This document shows, piece by piece, positions 49,166 through 63,672 of a stretch of 64,000 nucleotides of DNA (the first letter of the stretch is position 1; every line of letters begins with the position of its first letter). Below the pieces are notes generated by a model that did no database searches, was not told the DNA's origin, and saw only the letters and a list, made by a program, of their open reading frames with translations. Location of the stretch: IMG/VR virus record IMGVR_UViG_3300010885_037795, positions 1-64,000 of that record; one strand, given 5' to 3'. The DNA comes from a virus. Both the position numbers and the translations under genes were made by a program.

Positions 49166-50052
49166 AAACTGTAGACATTGCAGACCTAGATGTAATTTTT
49201 CTAACCTACGACGAACCTCGCAGAGAAGAGTCATGGGCCAAAATCAAAAACATGGTACCTTGGGCCAAGCGTGTGGATGGCATAAAAGGCAGTGATGCCG
49301 CACACAAAGCCGCAGGTGCGGCCAGCGATACAGATCGCTTTATACTAATTGACGGCGACAATATTCCTGACCCAGAGTTCTTTAACAAACAAATCACACT
49401 GGATCCACATCATGAAAGATGTGTGTTGCGTTGGAGAGCAAGAAACGCCATCAACGGACTCATGTACGGCAATGGTGGACTCAGCTCGTGGACCAAAAGT
49501 TTTGTAGAAAGCATGCGCACACACGAAGCCACTGATGGTCGTAATGAAACACTGGTGGAGTTTTGCTTTGAACCTGACTACTGGGCCATGCATGACTGCT
49601 ACTCAACCACGTATCCTAATGCCAGTCCATTTCAGGCCTGGCGAGCAGGCTTCCGTGAAGGTGTTAAAATGTGTCTGGATCGCGGAGCAAGACCCAACTT
49701 GGACGAGTTTGAAAAACGTGCCCACAATCGTAATCTTGATCATTTGACCATTTGGCAAAGTGTGGGTGCTGATGCAGAGAATGGCTTCTGGGCCATATAC
49801 GGTGCTAGACGTGGCACACAAATGACCATGCTTACAGACTGGGATTACACCCAGGTACAAGACTTTGATGAACTGGCAAAACTTTGGACTGTGTACCAAA
49901 ATGACGGCCCTGACGAATGCACTGAAGTAGGCAACATGCTACGCAAACGCCTGGGACTTAACATTGTGGATCTAGACCCCGAACCCAGTGCATTTTTCAA
50001 ACATCACTACAAGTCAAATTTTGTCAATAGAGGAATAATGAGTCGTGAGTAA
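49162..50052 (+). CDS. Glycosyltransferase-like protein, related to the end of 61666-63672
   Basis: This protein of about 296 residues has a GT-A-like N-terminal half: LDVIFLTYDEPRREESW, then AKRVDGIKGSDAAHKAAGAA, then DRFILIDGDNIPDPEFF with DGD as candidate metal-binding motif. Downstream NAINGLMYGNGGLSSWTKSF and SPFQAWRAGFREGVKMCL are shared in order with the C-terminal third of the 61666-63672 protein (NAVNDLVYGEMGIILYN, DPYQTWRTAFRETAKLCL). A TTG at 49153 would extend it, but ATG 49162 overlaps the previous stop as ATGA and is the likely start. It probably transfers a sugar in the same pathway as its neighbours; substrate unknown. Confidence 0.6.
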   Translation: MKTVDIADLDVIFLTYDEPRREESWAKIKNMVPWAKRVDGIKGSDAAHKAAGAASDTDRFILIDGDNIPDPEFFNKQITLDPHHERCVLRWRARNAINGLMYGNGGLSSWTKSFVESMRTHEATDGRNETLVEFCFEPDYWAMHDCYSTTYPNASPFQAWRAGFREGVKMCLDRGARPNLDEFEKRAHNRNLDHLTIWQSVGADAENGFWAIYGARRGTQMTMLTDWDYTQVQDFDELAKLWTVYQNDGPDECTEVGNMLRKRLGLNIVDLDPEPSAFFKHHYKSNFVNRGIMSRE

Positions 50053-51427
50053 AAGTGATTTCATGACAGCCGCAGAACAAATGCGCCACACACTAGGCGA
50101 AGGTCTTTGCTTGGCCAAATGGAAACAGGTTAGCTTGCACTTGCCCACAGGATTGAACAATTCATGCTATCATCCTCCACTACACAAGATTCCTGTGGAA
50201 CTGCTAGCAGGCAATCCTGGCGCACTGCACAATACTCCACATAAAAAAGCTCAGCGCAAGATCATGTTGAAACATGAACGTCCAGACGAGTGTAGTTACT
50301 GCTGGTCAGCAGAAGACAATGGACAACTCAGTGACAGGCACTACAGGTCAGGCGAGGAGTGGGCCGCAGAGGATCTTGACAAGATATTGGCCTCAACCGG
50401 AGACGAAGATGCATTACCTAGCTATGTGGAAGTTAATTTTAATCATGCTTGTAATCTTAAATGTAGCTATTGCAGTCCGCAATTTAGTTCAAGCTGGGCC
50501 GCTGAAGTTGCACAACATGGCGGATTCCCTACGTCCAGCCCTCACAATAGTCCTGAGTATTTTACTGGTAGTCGTCGCCCTATTCCTGCCCGAGAACACA
50601 ACCCCTACGTTGATACCTTCTGGGAATGGTGGCCAGAGCTGTACCCCAAGCTAAGACATTTTAGAATGACAGGTGGTGAGCCACTGATGGATCACAATAC
50701 CTATCGTGTGTTTGAATACGTGCTGACCTTGCCGCATCCATTGTTGCATTTGGATGTGACCAGCAACTTCAGTGTGGAGCCTGTGTTGTTTGAAAAGTAT
50801 CTTGGCTATGTCAAACAGTTATGCAACACACAGATTGAACACTTCATGCAGTATGTGAGCCTGGACACCTGGGGCAGTCAAGCAGAGTACATACGCAATG
50901 GCATGGACTTTGTGAGAGTGTGTGACTATGTGGAACGCTATTTAGAGGAAGTACCCAATCGCAACAGCCTTACGTTTATCATGACCATGAACAATCTCAG
51001 TGTCACGGGCATGCATGACATGCTGGATTGGATACTGGAACTACGTGCCAAGTACAGTAAAACATATCAGCGTGTGTGGTTTGACACACCGTTGCTGAGA
51101 CAACCACGTTGGCAAAGCCTGCAGATACTGCCGCCTGCGTATGCCAACAGAATGAAAATAAACCTAGAGTTCATGCGAGCACACCTAATCACAGATGATA
51201 GTTTTGTGGGATTCAAAGATTATGAAATACAGCGCATGGAACGAGACATTGCCTGGATGACTGAGCCACAAGACGCACAAGAAGTCAATCATGCACGTGC
51301 TGACTTCTATAGATTCTTCAACGAACACGACCGTAGACGCGGTACTAACTTTTTACAAACATTTCCAGAGATGAGCCATTTCTGGTGGGAATGCAAACAT
51401 CATGCCGAAACTGAACAACGAAACTGA
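50045..51427 (+). CDS. Radical SAM protein with N-terminal twitch-like cysteines
   Basis: This 460-residue radical SAM enzyme is the first of six in a row. The core motif CNLKCSYC gives Cys136, Cys140 and Cys143. RMTGGEPLMD follows as the S-adenosylmethionine contact. Before the core is an auxiliary-cluster-type region: LCLAKWKQ, NSCYHPP, then RPDECSYCW. SPASM/twitch cysteines thus precede the core rather than follow it. The start is GTG 50045, overlapping the upstream stop by 8 bases, with AGAGGA about a dozen bases ahead; ATG 50063 is an alternative. The 50409-50654 part also carries a +1 frame membrane ORF. Substrate unknown; peptide or sugar modification are both possible. Confidence 0.82.
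   Translation: MSKSDFMTAAEQMRHTLGEGLCLAKWKQVSLHLPTGLNNSCYHPPLHKIPVELLAGNPGALHNTPHKKAQRKIMLKHERPDECSYCWSAEDNGQLSDRHYRSGEEWAAEDLDKILASTGDEDALPSYVEVNFNHACNLKCSYCSPQFSSSWAAEVAQHGGFPTSSPHNSPEYFTGSRRPIPAREHNPYVDTFWEWWPELYPKLRHFRMTGGEPLMDHNTYRVFEYVLTLPHPLLHLDVTSNFSVEPVLFEKYLGYVKQLCNTQIEHFMQYVSLDTWGSQAEYIRNGMDFVRVCDYVERYLEEVPNRNSLTFIMTMNNLSVTGMHDMLDWILELRAKYSKTYQRVWFDTPLLRQPRWQSLQILPPAYANRMKINLEFMRAHLITDDSFVGFKDYEIQRMERDIAWMTEPQDAQEVNHARADFYRFFNEHDRRRGTNFLQTFPEMSHFWWECKHHAETEQRN
50409..50654 (+). CDS. Candidate nested two-segment membrane protein (+1 frame)
   Basis: An 81-residue reading frame lies wholly inside the radical SAM gene in its +1 frame. GGAG (50399-50402) stands six bases before its ATG. 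The protein has a hydrophobic segment at about 7-24 (WKLILIMLVILNVAIAV), a polar loop with RNLV, a second at about 46-61 (LTIVLSILLVVVALFL), and a polar tail ending SCTPS. This is the size and layout of class II holins or other small phage membrane effectors. It covers the part coding the CX3CX2C motif, where many host codons end in T, and T at that position gives hydrophobic residues in the +1 frame. A chance shadow is therefore possible. Its position matches the nested frame at 51748-51966 in the paralogous gene. Confidence 0.35.
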   Translation: MHYLAMWKLILIMLVILNVAIAVRNLVQAGPLKLHNMADSLRPALTIVLSILLVVVALFLPENTTPTLIPSGNGGQSCTPS

Positions 51428-55157: not shown

Positions 55158-56307
55158 AGTTATCCCGTTGGTTAATGTTAGTGCATTGCAAGCCCTGACG
55201 CCCGCACCTCTTGGTCGCGCAGAGGTTGACTCTGACTACATGACACGGTATATACAAACTGGAATGGATTTTAACAAGGATCTTGGACTAGCAGGCAAAT
55301 ATTGTTATCACCCATTTAACACAGTCACGATAGACCATCGAGGTCGTTGCTATGTATGCACCTGTCAGGCATGGTTACCAATCAGCGTAGGTAACATTTT
55401 AGATTTTAATTCGCTGAGTGAAATTGTTCACAGCTCACGTGCTAGAGAGATACAACGAAGTATCGTAGATGGCAGTTATCGTTACTGTGACAATAAAACT
55501 TGCGGGTTATTAATCAGCGACGCAATGGAAACTAGAATTGAGCACAAACCAGACACTGTGAATTGGATCAATTTCTGTATCGATGACAGTTGCAACTTAC
55601 AGTGTCCTAGCTGTCGCACAGATTTAATATTTCATAAACAAGGTCCAGAATTTGATCTACGTATGAAAATATCACAGCATGTGAGCAAGCTGATCAGCGA
55701 ACACAATCATTTTTTACGATTTACACTAAGCAACGATGGGGATCCATTTGCTAGTCATGTGTACAGAAACCTAATGACAACTATTGCGCCACAACTGGTC
55801 AATCAGCTGGAGATTGAAATAGTAACTAACGGCATATTAATGAAGTCACATTGGCACGAAATTGAAAACATATACCCTAACCTCACACTAATCAAAGTCA
55901 GTTTTGATGCTGCCACCGAACAAACATACAACAAAACACGATGCGGCGGCAGTTGGAACAAAGTAACTGAAAGCACTAGATTTGTAGCTGATTGGCTGGC
56001 TCAACGCAAAGCACAGCATCTCAATGCATATACTAGATTGGTAGCTAATTTTGTAGTGCAACAAACAAACTATCATGAGATGATTGACTTTGTAACACTG
56101 TGCAATTCGTTGGGTGTTGATCAGATCTTGTTTCAAAAAGTAACTAACTGGAATACGTGGATTGATGCCAACGGCACAGATCAGTACAGCGCACATGCAG
56201 TATGGCAACAGTCGCATCCTGAATATCACAAGCTGAAAGAAATACTAAAAGATCCTGTGTTTCAACAGCACAATGTTAAACTAACTAACCTAGCGGATCT
56301 ACTATGA
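55150..56307 (+). CDS. Radical SAM protein with N-terminal SPASM-like domain, divergent
   Basis: This 385-residue protein is the most divergent of the six. The N-terminal module has YCYHPFNTVTIDHRGRCYVC, then VGNILDFNSLSEIVHSSRA and a cysteine pair in YRYCDNKTCG, the SPASM order in a looser form. The core motif is CNLQCPSC (Cys148, Cys152, Cys155). TLSNDGDPFAS stands where others have GGEP. This matches the GDP-type motif of the two leftward radical SAM proteins (2868-3878 and 3872-4807), so the left and right sets share a subfamily. It overlaps both neighbours. Substrate is unknown. Confidence 0.78.
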   Translation: MNKVIPLVNVSALQALTPAPLGRAEVDSDYMTRYIQTGMDFNKDLGLAGKYCYHPFNTVTIDHRGRCYVCTCQAWLPISVGNILDFNSLSEIVHSSRAREIQRSIVDGSYRYCDNKTCGLLISDAMETRIEHKPDTVNWINFCIDDSCNLQCPSCRTDLIFHKQGPEFDLRMKISQHVSKLISEHNHFLRFTLSNDGDPFASHVYRNLMTTIAPQLVNQLEIEIVTNGILMKSHWHEIENIYPNLTLIKVSFDAATEQTYNKTRCGGSWNKVTESTRFVADWLAQRKAQHLNAYTRLVANFVVQQTNYHEMIDFVTLCNSLGVDQILFQKVTNWNTWIDANGTDQYSAHAVWQQSHPEYHKLKEILKDPVFQQHNVKLTNLADLL

Positions 56308-57593
56308 ACAAACCTGATTCGTTATGCTTGGCTCCTTGGACACACACATATCTTAGTCCGCAGACTGAGCGCCGCATGTGTTGTGCAAGTCGCGAGCCTG
56401 CACAAAACTTTCAACAGTATATTGACACCAGCGCCGGTTCTGGCAAGTATATACCTATCACTCTGGACGAACATTGGAACGGTGACCACATGCGCTCCGT
56501 ACGAAAACGCATGCTGTCCGGCGAAACATTACCCGAGTGCGAAGTATGTAATGATAAACTGTTGAATACCTCTGTGTATAGAGATTACTTCACGCACTTG
56601 TTTGCACACAAACTTGACCAAGTACATGCCAGTACAGATGACACCGGGCACACTACAATGCAACCGATCAGCTGGGACTATAGATTTAGTAATCTTTGTA
56701 ATTTCAAATGTCGCATGTGTGGAGACATGTTGAGCAGTGCATGGGAAAGCGAGCAACGTGTACATGGCATGATAGATTGGAACAATCCAAAGAACAACTG
56801 GATGAAGCCAGTCATACGCGATGAAATACATCAGTTTCAAACCACGCAGGTTGAACATGAGTTCAGTCAGGCAGTTGAAGAACATCGTGTTGAGGAGATA
56901 TATTGGGTGGGTGGCGAACCCTTGATGTACGAACAACATTGGAAGTACATGAAAAGAATAATTGAATTAGGGGACGGACCAAATGTCTATGCAAGATATA
57001 ATACAAATCTCAGCCGTGTTGATTATCGCGGTGTCAATCTTTATCGGGATATTTTATCTGGGTTACGGGATTGGCAAATCTGCGCATCGCTCGACGGAAC
57101 AGGTAAAATTGGTGAGTACATTAGATCAGGTCTCGACTTCGATGCTTGGCTTGAGAACTTCGCTCAAGGAGTTGCGATTGCGACTAATCCTAGACAGATG
57201 CGAATCGACTACACCCTTACCCTGCCAGGAATGTTTGAGGTTGAACGGATTGAACGACTGTCCGCAACCTACGGAGTACAAGTTCTGGCGAAGGTAGTTT
57301 TTAGTTTCAGTCCGGACATAGTTATGTCACCTTTAGCCCTACCTCGGGACATGTTACACTCTTGGGTAGATGAAATACTTTCTGTGGTGAAGACCGACTC
57401 GTTAAAGGATATCTTGGTTCAGCTGAAAACTAGACCTACGTTTGCGGAACAGTGGCCCGACCAATATCAAACAGCACTGCGCCGTGGTAAAGACCGTGTG
57501 TTGAAATTAGAAAGCATACGAGACAATCCTATCACAATGGCAGAGATATTGAGTGAACGATCGGATGTATTGCACTGGTGGAATAACATATGA
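56304..57593 (+). CDS. Radical SAM protein with N-terminal SPASM-like domain
   Basis: This 429-residue protein closes the radical SAM run. The N-terminal module reads LCLAPWTHTYLSPQTERRMC with a second Cys, then RKRMLSGETLPECEVC. The core has CNFKCRMC (Cys132, Cys136, Cys139) and IYWVGGEPLMYE. ASLDGTGKIGEYIRSGLDFD matches the substrate-side segment of its paralogues. Codon use changes from about 56990 to 57430, with codons rare elsewhere in the gene (CTC, TCG, CGG, GAG runs); this stretch also carries a +1 frame membrane ORF (56983-57297). The protein sequence itself stays family-like there. It overlaps the SGNH hydrolase gene by 4 bases (ATGA). Confidence 0.82.
   Translation: MNKPDSLCLAPWTHTYLSPQTERRMCCASREPAQNFQQYIDTSAGSGKYIPITLDEHWNGDHMRSVRKRMLSGETLPECEVCNDKLLNTSVYRDYFTHLFAHKLDQVHASTDDTGHTTMQPISWDYRFSNLCNFKCRMCGDMLSSAWESEQRVHGMIDWNNPKNNWMKPVIRDEIHQFQTTQVEHEFSQAVEEHRVEEIYWVGGEPLMYEQHWKYMKRIIELGDGPNVYARYNTNLSRVDYRGVNLYRDILSGLRDWQICASLDGTGKIGEYIRSGLDFDAWLENFAQGVAIATNPRQMRIDYTLTLPGMFEVERIERLSATYGVQVLAKVVFSFSPDIVMSPLALPRDMLHSWVDEILSVVKTDSLKDILVQLKTRPTFAEQWPDQYQTALRRGKDRVLKLESIRDNPITMAEILSERSDVLHWWNNI
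56983..57297 (+). CDS. Candidate nested single-segment membrane protein (+1 frame)
   Basis: A 104-residue frame lies inside the last radical SAM gene in its +1 frame. AGGGGA (56969-56974) stands eight bases before ATG 56983; a second ATG is two codons on. The protein starts MSMQDI, has one hydrophobic segment at about 8-28 (ISAVLIIAVSIFIGIFYLGY) and continues with GIGKSAHRSTEQVK into a helical Leu-heptad-like stretch (SMLGLRTSLKELRLRLIL). It ends with four cysteines (CESTTPLPCQEC, LNDC) and a basic tail. One N-terminal anchor plus a coiled-coil-like soluble part is the layout of inner-membrane spanins or T-holins. Host codon use is atypical beneath it. No homologue is known to me, so both its reality and its function are inference. 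Confidence 0.45.
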   Translation: MSMQDIIQISAVLIIAVSIFIGIFYLGYGIGKSAHRSTEQVKLVSTLDQVSTSMLGLRTSLKELRLRLILDRCESTTPLPCQECLRLNGLNDCPQPTEYKFWRR

Positions 57594-59526: not shown

Positions 59527-60219
59527 ATGAAAAAAATACTTGTTCTAGCCTGTAGTAGCGGATTGGGCGTCGAATGCGAAGATGTAATCAATCATTGCTG
59601 GCCCAACATACTAGGAGACCTTACTAACACCGCAGTAACCAATGCCTCTGAAGCTGGCGGTAGCAATGACATGATGTATCGCAAAGCACTGTCAATGACT
59701 GCAACTGAATCGTATGACCTGGTATTGATTGCATGGACAAACATTGATCGCATGGAAGTGTATTTTAACGAAGAGATTGTGTCTAATAGATTACCTGACG
59801 TACTAATCAGTGAAAAATTTCCTCGTGTGCAAGGACCTGGGCCAGTCAGTGTGTCTCATCATTGGAGTGACTTGCCTTGGATTGAAAAATACTATGGCAT
59901 GCACTATAATGAACGTTACTTACTAGAGCGATGGTTGCACCAAGCAATCACACTTCAAGAATATTTCAAAGCCAAAAAACAGCCATTTGCTTACATATCA
60001 AACTTTGGAAACACTCAGTATCTAAAAAATCATACAGACATTCCTATGTTAAAGATGCTGGATGTAAAATCTTGGATTGGTAACTGGCCTGGGTCAACTT
60101 TACGCGACTGGGGTGCACCAATTGGCGTACACAAATATGGTCATTTTACGTTAGACGCACATAAATTTATTGCAGAAAAAATACATGAGCATATTAGGAA
60201 TCGCGGCTGGCTTTCATGA
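59527..60219 (+). CDS. Divergent SGNH-like hydrolase
   Basis: This 230-residue protein looks like a second, divergent SGNH protein. KKILVLACSSGLGVECED stands in place of the GDS block, so the nucleophile is not canonical (Ser10 or Ser11 are candidates). SEAGGSNDMMYRKAL is a good block III with Asn47. YGHFTLDAHKFIAEKIHEHI gives the C-terminal D-x-H pair of block V. A Trp/His-rich middle (SHHWSDLPWIEKYYGMHYNE) is unusual. With no signal peptide it should act on a cytoplasmic or virion glycan. Its last 35 bases overlap the carbamoyltransferase gene. Confidence 0.6.
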   Translation: MKKILVLACSSGLGVECEDVINHCWPNILGDLTNTAVTNASEAGGSNDMMYRKALSMTATESYDLVLIAWTNIDRMEVYFNEEIVSNRLPDVLISEKFPRVQGPGPVSVSHHWSDLPWIEKYYGMHYNERYLLERWLHQAITLQEYFKAKKQPFAYISNFGNTQYLKNHTDIPMLKMLDVKSWIGNWPGSTLRDWGAPIGVHKYGHFTLDAHKFIAEKIHEHIRNRGWLS

Positions 60220-61666
60220 TGCCGCACTAGCGGTAATTGACAAGCATGGGGACATTGTATTTGCTGGACACAGTGAGCGTTACAGCAAAATCAAACACGA
60301 CAAAAATTTATCGCCAGGCTTGATTGCCGAAGTATGCAAATTTGATATACATGAAATAGCATATTATGAACGTCCTTGGGCACAACAGTTGCGTAGATTG
60401 TACACCGGCGAAGGAGTAGAGTGGAACAAGCTCACAGTCCGGCAGATATTAAAAAAACAAATTAACGAGTTCAGTGCATTCTCTGGACCAGTAGTAGCAT
60501 ATCCGCATCATCTGAGTCATGCGGCAGCAGGATTTCAAACAAGCCCATTTACCCGTGCCACAGTGGTTGTGATAGACGCTGTAGGTGAATGGGACACAAT
60601 AACCATCTGGGGCGCAGAATACGATCGCAATGGACACGCACAGTACAAGAAGTTATGGCAACAAGGTTACCCGCATAGTATAGGATTGTTCTACAGTGCA
60701 ATGACCCAGCGAGTAGGGTTGAAGCCCCTGGACGAAGAATACATTTTGATGGGCATGGCAGCGTATGGTGAGCGTGGCTTTGGTGACCTATTAAAAATGG
60801 ACATGATAGAATCAGAATTTGACATTCGATTCAAACACAATCTACACACTGGTATAGATAAAAAATATCTAGCCTACATCAGTGACTTTGATATAGCTGC
60901 CGGCGCACAAGATCTTGTGGAAACACTCATACTCAATGTTATGCTACGTGCTAAGAAGTTTGGGTGGAGTAGCAATCTGGTGTACGGTGGAGGTGTTGCG
61001 CTCAACTGTGCCGCCAATAGATTTTTAGGAGAATATTTTGATAACATTTGGATTATGCCTTGTCCTGGTGATGCTGGTTCTAGTCTGGGGGCCGCCGCTG
61101 TTAGTTTCCGTGGTTGTATTAATTGGACTGATGCTTGTCTTGGGCATGATATACCTGGCGACTATCCTGTTAATGATGCCGTGGCTGCTCTTTTGCGTGG
61201 TGATATTATTGGTGTGGCGAGCGGTCGAGCCGAGTTCGGCCCGAGAGCGTTGGGAAACAGAAGTCTCCTCGCAGACCCAAGAGGAACAGAAATCAAAGAC
61301 AAAGTAAATGAAATCAAACGTAGACAAAAGTTTAGACCCTTTGCACCCGTTGTATTGGAAGAGATGGCTGATCAGTATTTTACTATGCCTCGCGGGTGGG
61401 ATCGCAGTCGGTACATGCAGTCAGTCGCTGACTGTAGGCATCCTGAGTTATTTCCTGCTATTGTTCACGCTGACGGAACTAGTCGTGTTCAGACCGTACC
61501 GAAAGATGGAAGCGGAATTAGAGAGCTCCTTGAAAAATGGTTCGTGTTAACTGATTGTCCTATGTTGCTAAACACCAGCCTAAACATACGTGGCGAACCT
61601 ATGGTCAATGATCGTGCTGACGCAGACCGCTTTGAAAAGTTATATGGCATAAAGGTCTACAGTTAA
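60185..61666 (+). CDS. NodU/CmcH-type carbamoyltransferase
   Basis: This protein of about 493 residues is a complete carbamoyltransferase, which transfers a carbamoyl group from carbamoyl phosphate via carbamoyl-adenylate to a hydroxyl of a sugar or metabolite. Family motifs in order: GIAAGFHDAALAVI, PHHLSHAAAGFQTSPF (metal His), VIDAVGEWDT, DEEYILMGMAAYGE, GGVALNCAANR, PGDAGSSLGAAA, GRAEFGPRALGNRSLLADPR, RPFAPVVLEE and LLNTSLNIRGEPMVN. TTG 60170 is in frame, but ATG 60185 gives the normal start MSILGIAAGF. From 61046 to 61219 I count 41 of 58 codons ending in T and one in A, against 16 and 19 of the first 58. Two nested +1 frames lie beneath (61038-61550). The stop overlaps the next ATG by one base. 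Confidence 0.92.
   Translation: MSILGIAAGFHDAALAVIDKHGDIVFAGHSERYSKIKHDKNLSPGLIAEVCKFDIHEIAYYERPWAQQLRRLYTGEGVEWNKLTVRQILKKQINEFSAFSGPVVAYPHHLSHAAAGFQTSPFTRATVVVIDAVGEWDTITIWGAEYDRNGHAQYKKLWQQGYPHSIGLFYSAMTQRVGLKPLDEEYILMGMAAYGERGFGDLLKMDMIESEFDIRFKHNLHTGIDKKYLAYISDFDIAAGAQDLVETLILNVMLRAKKFGWSSNLVYGGGVALNCAANRFLGEYFDNIWIMPCPGDAGSSLGAAAVSFRGCINWTDACLGHDIPGDYPVNDAVAALLRGDIIGVASGRAEFGPRALGNRSLLADPRGTEIKDKVNEIKRRQKFRPFAPVVLEEMADQYFTMPRGWDRSRYMQSVADCRHPELFPAIVHADGTSRVQTVPKDGSGIRELLEKWFVLTDCPMLLNTSLNIRGEPMVNDRADADRFEKLYGIKVYS
61038..61307 (+). CDS. Candidate nested three-segment membrane protein (+1 frame)
   Basis: An 89-residue frame lies inside the carbamoyltransferase gene in its +1 frame. AGGAG (61027-61031) stands six bases before a TTG start; GTG 61068 and ATG 61071 are later alternatives. 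Three hydrophobic stretches (about 3-17, 20-42 and 43-59; for example LLVSVVVLIGLMLVLGM) are followed by a strongly charged tail of about 30 residues (RAVEPSSARERWETE, then QEEQKSKTK). Three segments plus a charged C-terminal tail is the class I holin layout (lambda S type). The host gene's T-ending codon run stops where the nested tail turns hydrophilic: of the 29 host codons after 61219, two end in T. The frame ends TAA directly before the ATG of the next nested frame. Function is inferred. Confidence 0.5.
   Translation: MITFGLCLVLVMLVLVWGPPLLVSVVVLIGLMLVLGMIYLATILLMMPWLLFCVVILLVWRAVEPSSARERWETEVSSQTQEEQKSKTK
61308..61550 (+). CDS. Candidate nested two-segment membrane protein (+1 frame)
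   Basis: An 80-residue frame starts at the TAAATG junction with the previous nested frame and shares its phase. The protein reads as an ordinary small phage membrane protein: polar start (MKSNVDKSLDPLHPLYWKRW), hydrophobic segments at about 20-38 (WLISILLCLAGGIAVGTC) and about 43-64 (TVGILSYFLLLFTLTELVVF), and a charged tail (RPYRKMEAELESSLKNG). Both ends would face the cytoplasm, as in class II holins or antiholins. GAGGA lies 22 bases upstream, too far for a normal site, so coupling to the previous frame is expected. Host codons beneath include AGG, CGG and CTC. After 61550 host codon use looks normal again. This is the most protein-like of the nested frames. Confidence 0.52.
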   Translation: MKSNVDKSLDPLHPLYWKRWLISILLCLAGGIAVGTCSQSLTVGILSYFLLLFTLTELVVFRPYRKMEAELESSLKNGSC

Positions 61667-63672
61667 TGTATGATGTATTTTATACCGGCACAGCACCTGG
61701 CGTGTTTGCACACGAACGCAGTGCCAACAACATTGAACACGCACAGCAACTGAGTCGTACACGTTACTTCTGGTGGGTAACTGCACATTGTGACTACACC
61801 GACTTTGATTTTTACTTCACACCTGTACCTTGGCAAGGAGACTTCACGCATGTATGGCCCACACAATGGAAAGAGTTCTTTGGTGCATACCTTGTGCCCA
61901 CCAACAGTAAACAACTAAACTATCACCACCACAGTGAAGTGTTACCTCCGCGGCAGCATCCAGAGCACTATACAAAACTAATCAACTGCGAGTTTGATAC
62001 TGAGTGGGTTCCGCATCCTTGGGACCCACCTTACATCTATGTGTTTGGTAACCAGTGGTACCCAGCAGAGAAAATGCCCACTGTTGAATATCATGCGCCG
62101 GGTGCAACTGAGCGCAAGTTCATGCCGTGGCCACGTGCGCAACTGGTTCCTGACACTACATTATGGACAGTGCCAGAAGGCATTGATCCCGGCGACGTGG
62201 ATTTTTCATGGGTGCCCGATCCGGGCTCACCTCCATATATCTATCAGTTTGCCACACAGCATCAGAAAACAGGTGGCCCACAATATCGTATGCCCGGTGC
62301 AACTGAAGTAAAGTATGTGGAACAAGTAAAGGTACGCACCAGTCGTGTGGCTACAGCCGTTTATGAAATTGATCACAGTGACGGCAACACCGGGTATGTT
62401 CCAAACATTACTCGACGTATTCGATTCTTTGACAACTACAAGGACACACTGATACGTCTGGCAACCAGTATAGGCGATGAACATGACTTTGTGTGGATAT
62501 GTAGCAGTGCGTGTGACTACACAAACTTTGACTTCACATGGCACCCAGAACAATGGCAAGCTACTATGTTGCATGTGTTCCCAAGCAACGACCAAAAGTT
62601 TGGAGACACATTCTTCATGCATGTGCCCACCTTTAGAGCACGTGCTGAACAGTACGAATTGTTAGATTGGTATGACCTAAACTTCTGCACCGACCAGTTA
62701 GTGCCACGCAGACCATTTCCATGTGTTGAATATTCTGGATCCAGTGTTGTACCAGTTATTCGCGAGCATGAGTTTTTGGCCCCGTATACGTTATTTCAGC
62801 ATACCTTGTACAGTTCAACACAAGTACATGCTAGTCCGAGCCTGTGGAGTAAAAAACACCGTGAACTGATTACATTTAGCGCAGGAAACAGCGCCGCACT
62901 AGTGCCTAAAGATGTAAAACAACACCTTGAGACACAGGTTTATGACTACCCTTGGATCAAGAAAAGTAACGATCGCTTGCCCGAACTGCCACAAGACATT
63001 GTGTTTATCAGTTACGATGAATTGAATGCAGATCAAAACTATCACAATCTTGTGAGCCGTTTTTCAAATGCCAAACGAGTACACGGTGTTGAAGGAATGG
63101 TTGCGGCACTAGAAGCAGCCGCACGTGCTAGCACAACTGATTGGTTCTATGCAGTGTTTGCCAAGACACAGGTACATGAGTCATTTGTGTTTGACTTTGC
63201 ACCAGATCGTTTCCAACAACCCAAGCATTACATATTCTATGCTATCAATGCAGTGAATGATCTAGTGTATGGAGAAATGGGCATCATCTTATACAACCGT
63301 CAAATGGTACTGGACGGTCCTGCTGAACTGGGCATTGACTATACCATGAGCTTTCCAAATGAAACCATACCGCAAATCAGTGCTTACGGTAACTTCAACA
63401 CAGATCCATATCAGACCTGGCGTACTGCATTCCGTGAAACTGCAAAACTATGTTTGTTCCAGTATCAGACACCCAGCGTGGAAACAGAACACAGACTTGG
63501 TACATGGTTGTCACACGCACGTGGTGCGCATGCTGAGTGGGCATTGCGTGGTGCGCAGGACGGAAAACAATTCTTTGAAGAAGTAGGTGCAGACGAAGCG
63601 CAACTAAAAGCAATGTTTAGTTGGAAATGGTTACGTGAACGCTACTGTAGTCTTTACGAAAAAACTTCTTGA
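61666..63672 (+). CDS. Large glycosyltransferase-like protein with repeated N-terminal modules
   Basis: This 668-residue protein has an N-terminal part made of repeats and a C-terminal GT-A-like part. Repeat type one is FWWVTAHCDYTDFDFYFTPV then PWQ (about 36-60) and FVWICSSACDYTNFDFTWHP then EQWQ (about 273-300). Repeat type two is HPWDPPYIYVFGNQWYP (about 117-135) and PDPGSPPYIYQFATQHQ (about 186-202). Residues about 440-640 (DIVFISYDELNADQNYHNL, then AKRVHGVEGM, then DPYQTWRTAFRETAKLCL) correspond to the whole 49162-50052 protein. The DGD position of that paralogue is FAKTQ here, so the metal motif is missing and catalysis is doubtful. It may recognise a glycan. Its 3' end overlaps the convergent aminotransferase gene by 56 bases. 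Confidence 0.6.
   Translation: MYDVFYTGTAPGVFAHERSANNIEHAQQLSRTRYFWWVTAHCDYTDFDFYFTPVPWQGDFTHVWPTQWKEFFGAYLVPTNSKQLNYHHHSEVLPPRQHPEHYTKLINCEFDTEWVPHPWDPPYIYVFGNQWYPAEKMPTVEYHAPGATERKFMPWPRAQLVPDTTLWTVPEGIDPGDVDFSWVPDPGSPPYIYQFATQHQKTGGPQYRMPGATEVKYVEQVKVRTSRVATAVYEIDHSDGNTGYVPNITRRIRFFDNYKDTLIRLATSIGDEHDFVWICSSACDYTNFDFTWHPEQWQATMLHVFPSNDQKFGDTFFMHVPTFRARAEQYELLDWYDLNFCTDQLVPRRPFPCVEYSGSSVVPVIREHEFLAPYTLFQHTLYSSTQVHASPSLWSKKHRELITFSAGNSAALVPKDVKQHLETQVYDYPWIKKSNDRLPELPQDIVFISYDELNADQNYHNLVSRFSNAKRVHGVEGMVAALEAAARASTTDWFYAVFAKTQVHESFVFDFAPDRFQQPKHYIFYAINAVNDLVYGEMGIILYNRQMVLDGPAELGIDYTMSFPNETIPQISAYGNFNTDPYQTWRTAFRETAKLCLFQYQTPSVETEHRLGTWLSHARGAHAEWALRGAQDGKQFFEEVGADEAQLKAMFSWKWLRERYCSLYEKTS

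Follow-up and report, generated by a model that had tools for sequence, protein, structure and literature searches.

Two probable membrane-protein genes nested in a carbamoyltransferase gene

The NodU/Nol-like O-carbamoyltransferase gene of a large, uncultured T4-like phage very probably codes twice, its +1 frame carrying two tandem membrane proteins, ORF1 and ORF2. Dual coding, proposed in a preliminary description of this DNA, was supported in related genes by avoidance of +1 stops, codon context, synonymous constraint and kept starts and Shine-Dalgarno sequences, and it was further backed by relaxed constraint in lineages without an ORF. Comparison of the sequences shows that selection acts to keep both +1 frames open, and we infer that ORF1 and ORF2 are translated.

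The window analysed was 64 kb of an IMG/VR virus record of 74,019 bases in total. Its gene content was T4-like, with SbcC/SbcD-like subunits (gp46/47-like) and baseplate wedge and hub proteins. Large structural ORFs, taken as tail fibres, extended to a position of about 46.8 kb, and glycan, radical-SAM and SGNH-type genes lay downstream. The carbamoyltransferase matched Pfam PF16861 (E=3.9e-47) and PF02543 (E=2.1e-37), and the true start of its gene may be the in-frame ATG at 60185. Downstream of it, 61666-63672 encoded a 668-aa protein without Pfam match, which had relatives at 34 of the 99 related loci described below. At 305-733 on the minus strand, homing-endonuclease-like matches were found (PHROG 447, 7363, 314 and 7168).

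Both nested ORFs were located in the 3' third of the carbamoyltransferase gene (Table 1). The coordinates and frames of two consecutive +1 ORFs of 89 and 80 residues joined at TAAATG were confirmed, and AGGAG was found six bases before the TTG start, as originally described. The ORF2 Shine-Dalgarno sequence of the window itself was AAAGA, weaker than the AAGGA of most relatives. Third positions of the carbamoyltransferase codons over 61046-61219 were 71% T and 2% A. A recount agreed with the earlier hand count of 41 T-ending codons and 1 A-ending codon among these 58, against 16 and 19 in the first 58 codons of the gene; it also agreed on the near-loss of T-endings past 61219 (2 of 29 codons over 61220-61306). 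The third base of the carbamoyltransferase codon falls in the middle of the nested codon, where T gives F, L, I, M or V; the nested proteins are therefore rich in hydrophobic residues because the codons are T-ending there. An antisense ORF at 61025-61327 was also considered and rejected; it was open in the window, but closed in most relatives.

Both products would be made from the same mRNA as the enzyme. ORF1 would be reached by internal initiation at AGGAG and TTG in the +1 frame, and ORF2 by internal initiation at its Shine-Dalgarno sequence and the ATG directly past a +1 stop. In the window, the ORF1 stop abutting the ORF2 ATG would permit coupling.

Table 1. Positions in the window of the carbamoyltransferase gene, the nested ORFs and their signals, and further nested frames.
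Feature	Position	Strand	Remarks
NodU/Nol-like O-carbamoyltransferase gene	60170..61666	+	Pfam PF02543 and PF16861
Nested ORF1, 89 aa, hydrophobic, TTG start	61038..61307	+	Putative gene, +1 frame of the carbamoyltransferase
Nested ORF2, 80 aa, ATG start	61308..61550	+	Putative gene, +1 frame; two predicted TM helices, charged ends
ORF1 Shine-Dalgarno sequence, AGGAG	61027..61031	+	6 nt before TTG; read in the sequence, kept in relatives
ORF2 Shine-Dalgarno position	61295..61299	+	8 nt before ATG; mostly AAGGA in relatives
TAAATG junction	61305..61310	+	ORF1 stop (in the window) abutting ORF2 start; sequence and relatives
Nested +1 ORF, 104 aa	56983..57297	+	Inside radical-SAM gene 56304-57593; one N-terminal TM and a helix-like charged tail
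Weaker +1 open-frame signal, hydrophobic stretch	~50372-50580	+	Inside radical-SAM gene 50045-51427

Relatives of the carbamoyltransferase gene

Three scans of viral contigs yielded 187 usable genes including that of the window, and 99 remained after those more than 93% identical were dropped. Carbamoyltransferase protein identity in these 99 was mostly 62-72%. The phages were large dsDNA phages with contigs of up to 374 kb, and a scan of genome contigs with the carbamoyltransferase protein confirmed 0 cellular relatives. The T-run was common to the whole family and not peculiar to the window. Among the 59 dereplicated relatives of an earlier set, an amino-acid-corrected excess of T-endings with depletion of A-endings was found in the blocks 61040-61220 and 61340-61490, which correspond to the hydrophobic parts of ORF1 and ORF2. 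The length of 89 aa was not the commonest for ORF1: in many relatives it ran for 71 or 85 codons, and the usual length of ORF2 was 70-80 codons. Since the relatives share history, Fisher p-values and shuffle z-scores make the signals look more significant than they are; the test on 35 pairs reported below is alone in being largely free of this effect.

Avoidance of stop codons in the +1 frame

Stops in the +1 frame of the 99 relatives were counted against a global null in which the protein and codon usage of each gene were held fixed. Over three parts of ORF1 the observed and expected counts were 23/125, 22/140 and 38/139, and over three parts of ORF2 they were 32/144, 14/47 and 11/41. In the gap between the ORFs +1 stops were enriched (226 observed, 172 expected), and they were enriched also after ORF2. 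When codons were shuffled only within each stretch, so that local codon usage was kept, ORF1 was open in 70 of the 99 relatives vs 12.0 expected (sd 2.9) and ORF2 in 71 vs 14.7 expected (sd 2.9). The same shuffle gave no such excess in the gap or the control stretches, and the +2 frame was never open across the nested stretches. In the first 20 codons of ORF2, an A-rich stretch, +1 stops were depleted though T-endings were below expectation, so the T-run alone is no explanation.

Codon context was analysed with I, V and L codons ending in A, for which a following codon beginning with A or G would create a +1 TAA or TAG. In ORF1, NTA made up 7% before A/G vs 38% before C/T (odds ratio 0.13), and in ORF2 8% vs 45% (odds ratio 0.11). 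NTG before A, which would give a +1 TGA, behaved alike (4% vs 33% in ORF1, 6% vs 33% in ORF2). The effect on NTA was mild in upstream controls (odds ratio 0.63-0.74), and neither the gap nor the stretch after ORF2 showed any (1.0 in both).

Synonymous constraint and start signals

A pairwise form of the synonymous-constraint check on homologues proposed at the outset showed reduced divergence in both nested blocks. Across 35 disjoint pairs the ratio of observed to expected synonymous divergence was 0.75 (95% CI 0.63-0.87) in ORF1 and 0.73 (95% CI 0.63-0.81) in ORF2; the gap gave 0.94 and the controls 0.96-0.98. When both members of a pair were intact, the ratios were 0.68 for ORF1 and 0.60 for ORF2, and otherwise they were 0.85 and 0.91; the constraint thus tracks the intactness of the ORFs.

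The start and Shine-Dalgarno sequence of both ORFs are maintained by synonymous choice. At the ORF1 Shine-Dalgarno sequence the Gly codon at 61028 was GGA in 63 of the 99 relatives vs 27 expected, and the Leu at 61025 beside it favoured TTA/CTA. The Lys codon at the ORF2 Shine-Dalgarno sequence was AAG in 73 vs 30 expected, and at the TAA/ATG junction Val was GTA in 77 vs 33 expected and Asn was AAT in 93 vs 56 expected. ORF2 began with ATG in 90 of 99 relatives, and an in-frame TAA or TGA stood just before it in 91 of 99. ORF1 began with TTG in 92 of 99, which is weak evidence because the Phe codon TTT is common anyway (95 vs 80 expected). The start and ribosome-binding site were better conserved at ORF2 than at the TTG of ORF1.

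Other explanations of the open frames

T at the third base of the carbamoyltransferase codons automatically yields a hydrophobic, stop-poor +1 frame, and the open frames could thus be an untranslated by-product of a patch of codon usage or composition. The preliminary description had named relatives with the T-run and +1 stops as evidence against dual coding; this was not the general pattern, but a few lineages, L100 and L173 among them, did combine a T-rich block with +1 stops. Such a patch is nevertheless an improbable source of the signal. The avoidance hinged on the next base, which is predicted by avoidance of +1 stops and not by codon preference, and shuffles that kept the codon usage of the patch still expected far fewer open frames. 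Stops were depleted even where the sequence was A-rich and T-poor, and the start and Shine-Dalgarno positions were maintained. The patch was rejected on the codon-context test and the local shuffle.

Synonymous constraint alone cannot separate a protein from an RNA structure or another nucleic-acid signal, but the constraint here followed the logic of a reading frame in its stops, starts and codon context, and the +1 residues of ORF2 were conserved above their null. The RNA of the region was also less stable than its shuffles (z +2.46), and a signal of this kind is scarcely credible as the cause. Somewhat less remote, though still very unlikely, is that ribosomes shift by +1 from the carbamoyltransferase frame into ORF1 and make a fusion of the two with no TTG start. 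A +1 stop lies just upstream; after it come AGGAG and a T-rich Phe codon, which 95 of 99 relatives have as TTT, and a Shine-Dalgarno-like sequence beside a Phe codon recalls the prfB frameshift. Against this, the pairing of a Phe tRNA after a +1 slip from TTT to TTG would be poor, the 6-nt spacing between AGGAG and TTG fits initiation, and ORF2 is equipped with an ATG and a Shine-Dalgarno sequence of its own.

Predicted properties of the nested proteins

Among 70 intact members, ORF2 had two predicted TM segments in 55, compared with 8% in the codon-usage null, and K/R stood at both ends and were almost absent inside the helices. The AlphaFold2 model of ORF2 was a helical hairpin of moderate confidence (pLDDT 68). 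Conservation of the +1 residues was 1.58 vs 0.76 in the null for ORF2 and, more modestly, 1.01 vs 0.67 for ORF1, and controls lay about 0.2 above their null. When searched with the ORF2 profile, 14 records measuring up to 374 kb gave exactly one match each, and this was the nested locus wherever its coordinates were known. These data lend moderate weight to a two-helix membrane hairpin for ORF2, and its charges suggest that both termini are cytoplasmic.

By simple hydropathy, 66 intact ORF1 members had three hydrophobic segments in 15 cases, two in 42 and one in 9, and the AlphaFold2 model was one long helix and uninformative. ORF1 is accordingly regarded, also with moderate weight, as a membrane protein of two to three segments. 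The three-segment layout and class I holin assignment given to ORF1 in the preliminary description were not supported, the fixed layout of three TM segments being seen in those 15 of 66 alone.

Class II holins have two TM helices, a short loop and charged N- and C-termini. ORF2 resembled them in size (about 70-80 aa), in its pair of TM helices with a short loop and in its charged termini, and differed in being nested, in lacking a family match and in having no endolysin of the three families sought (listed below) recognised nearby. The searches found no known family for the nested proteins in Pfam and PHROG (weak, scattered E-values; in PHROG solely weak, scattered membrane-protein matches), no match for the ORF2 model in a viral fold search at E <= 0.001, and no match for the ORF2 consensus by tblastn in 50,697 phage records. 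The holin-like character proposed earlier thus stood for ORF2 as a class II-like layout and fell short in sequence and fold, and the proposed TM prediction and phage-protein search returned the two TM segments without a family. Because holins are very diverse, the lack of a holin-family match counts little against a holin-like mechanism.

The leading single guess at function, a tentative one, is a late-expressed membrane-permeabilising pair of the holin/antiholin type, which is based on the layout and the position past the tail-fibre genes. Superinfection exclusion and other membrane effectors together are at least as likely. A real gene pair whose role is not lysis, such as small membrane effectors of superinfection exclusion or host takeover, has about an even chance, and it competes with the functional guess only. 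The carbamoyltransferase gene lies amid glycan, radical-SAM and SGNH genes with no recognised lysis gene adjoining, the weak PHROG matches are to membrane proteins, and frequent loss fits an accessory function; the two-helix hairpin, the charged ends and the position past the tail-fibre genes fit a holin too. Searches of 13 records, contigs of relatives of 175-374 kb (G001-G011 and G013) among them, detected none of the endolysin families PF00959 (Phage_lysozyme), PF08291 (Peptidase_M15_3) and PF01510 (Amidase_2), so no position could be assigned to the lysis module.

Probable gain and loss of the nested genes

Both nested ORFs were present in 53 of the 99 relatives. ORF1 was disrupted in about a third of them and ORF2 likewise, and 21 state changes for ORF1 and 19 for ORF2 were counted on the tree; the nested genes are therefore dispensable in some lineages. 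L073, L123, L141 and L173 had lost ORF1 and most of the A-avoidance in the ORF1 block, and had kept ORF2 with its own A-avoidance. Neither nested gene was recognisable in the sister clade, which comprised 49 relatives, mostly marine, of 45-50% identity. The +1 frame of the ORF2 region was open in 19 of these 49 vs 5.3 expected, most of the open frames being without start codon or hydrophobicity, and the ORF1 region showed some codon-context bias (odds ratio 0.18). Gain in the ancestor of the clade of the window, followed by repeated loss, would be the simplest reading, and loss this frequent points to a function that is useful yet dispensable or replaceable.

Comparison with known nested genes

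In tiny, size-limited phage genomes, genes embedded out of frame are a familiar feature. Lysis genes nested out of frame include phiX174 gene E in D and lambda Rz1 in Rz; the enclosing genes and protein layouts differ from those described here, and no sequence relation was found. The sgl genes of ssRNA leviviruses are small, and most functional ones lie entirely within a larger gene, rep, in its +1 frame; they arise de novo, turn over and sometimes number more than one per genome (PMC7693330). The present genes are like them in being small and in overprinting a larger gene in its +1 frame. The leviviruses are ssRNA phages of 3-4 genes, whereas the present phages are large dsDNA phages; the enclosing gene here encodes a sugar-modifying enzyme and would hold two genes in tandem, for which lysis is only conjectural. 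An HNH endonuclease is reported to be hidden in the ShiLan insertion of a phage methylase, and a second protein is thus likewise concealed within a phage enzyme gene (PMC11855218). That case is an inserted mobile element, whereas here the conserved enzyme domain itself is overprinted.

A search of published papers, few of them from subscription journals, turned up no description of genes nested in a phage carbamoyltransferase. If the dual-coding reading is right, a tandem pair of nested genes in an enzyme gene of a large dsDNA phage, long conserved and repeatedly lost, would suggest overprinting as an ordinary source of small membrane proteins even where genome space is ample, with such embedded genes overlooked in phage annotation.

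Nested frames in neighbouring genes

The same scan was applied to 11 neighbouring genes with enough homologues. Few outliers were obtained, and the carbamoyltransferase signal was the strongest. The nested 104-aa ORF in the downstream one of the two radical-SAM genes in Table 1 was open over 55 codons in 46 of 62 relatives vs 12.3 expected, with an odds ratio of 0.09 for NTA before A/G and a synonymous ratio of 0.85-0.87. The weaker signal in the other radical-SAM gene was open in 37 of 63 vs 14.1 expected, with a synonymous ratio of 0.88 and a T3 of 0.47 vs 0.33 in the whole gene. Either membrane-protein overprinting is not confined to a single gene in these phages, or the scan yields false positives at a rate that so small a set of genes leaves unsettled. 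It is conceivable, though doubtful, that small membrane genes hidden in the +1 frame of nearby virion/glycan-modification genes (two in the carbamoyltransferase gene, one in a radical-SAM gene and perhaps a further one) act together as a module for lysis or membrane takeover that gene callers overlook. In an amidinotransferase-like gene of the relatives (L051, 5235-6320, minus strand), the antisense frame was open over 65 codons in 20 of 29 vs 9.2 expected, an excess that may be due to chance.
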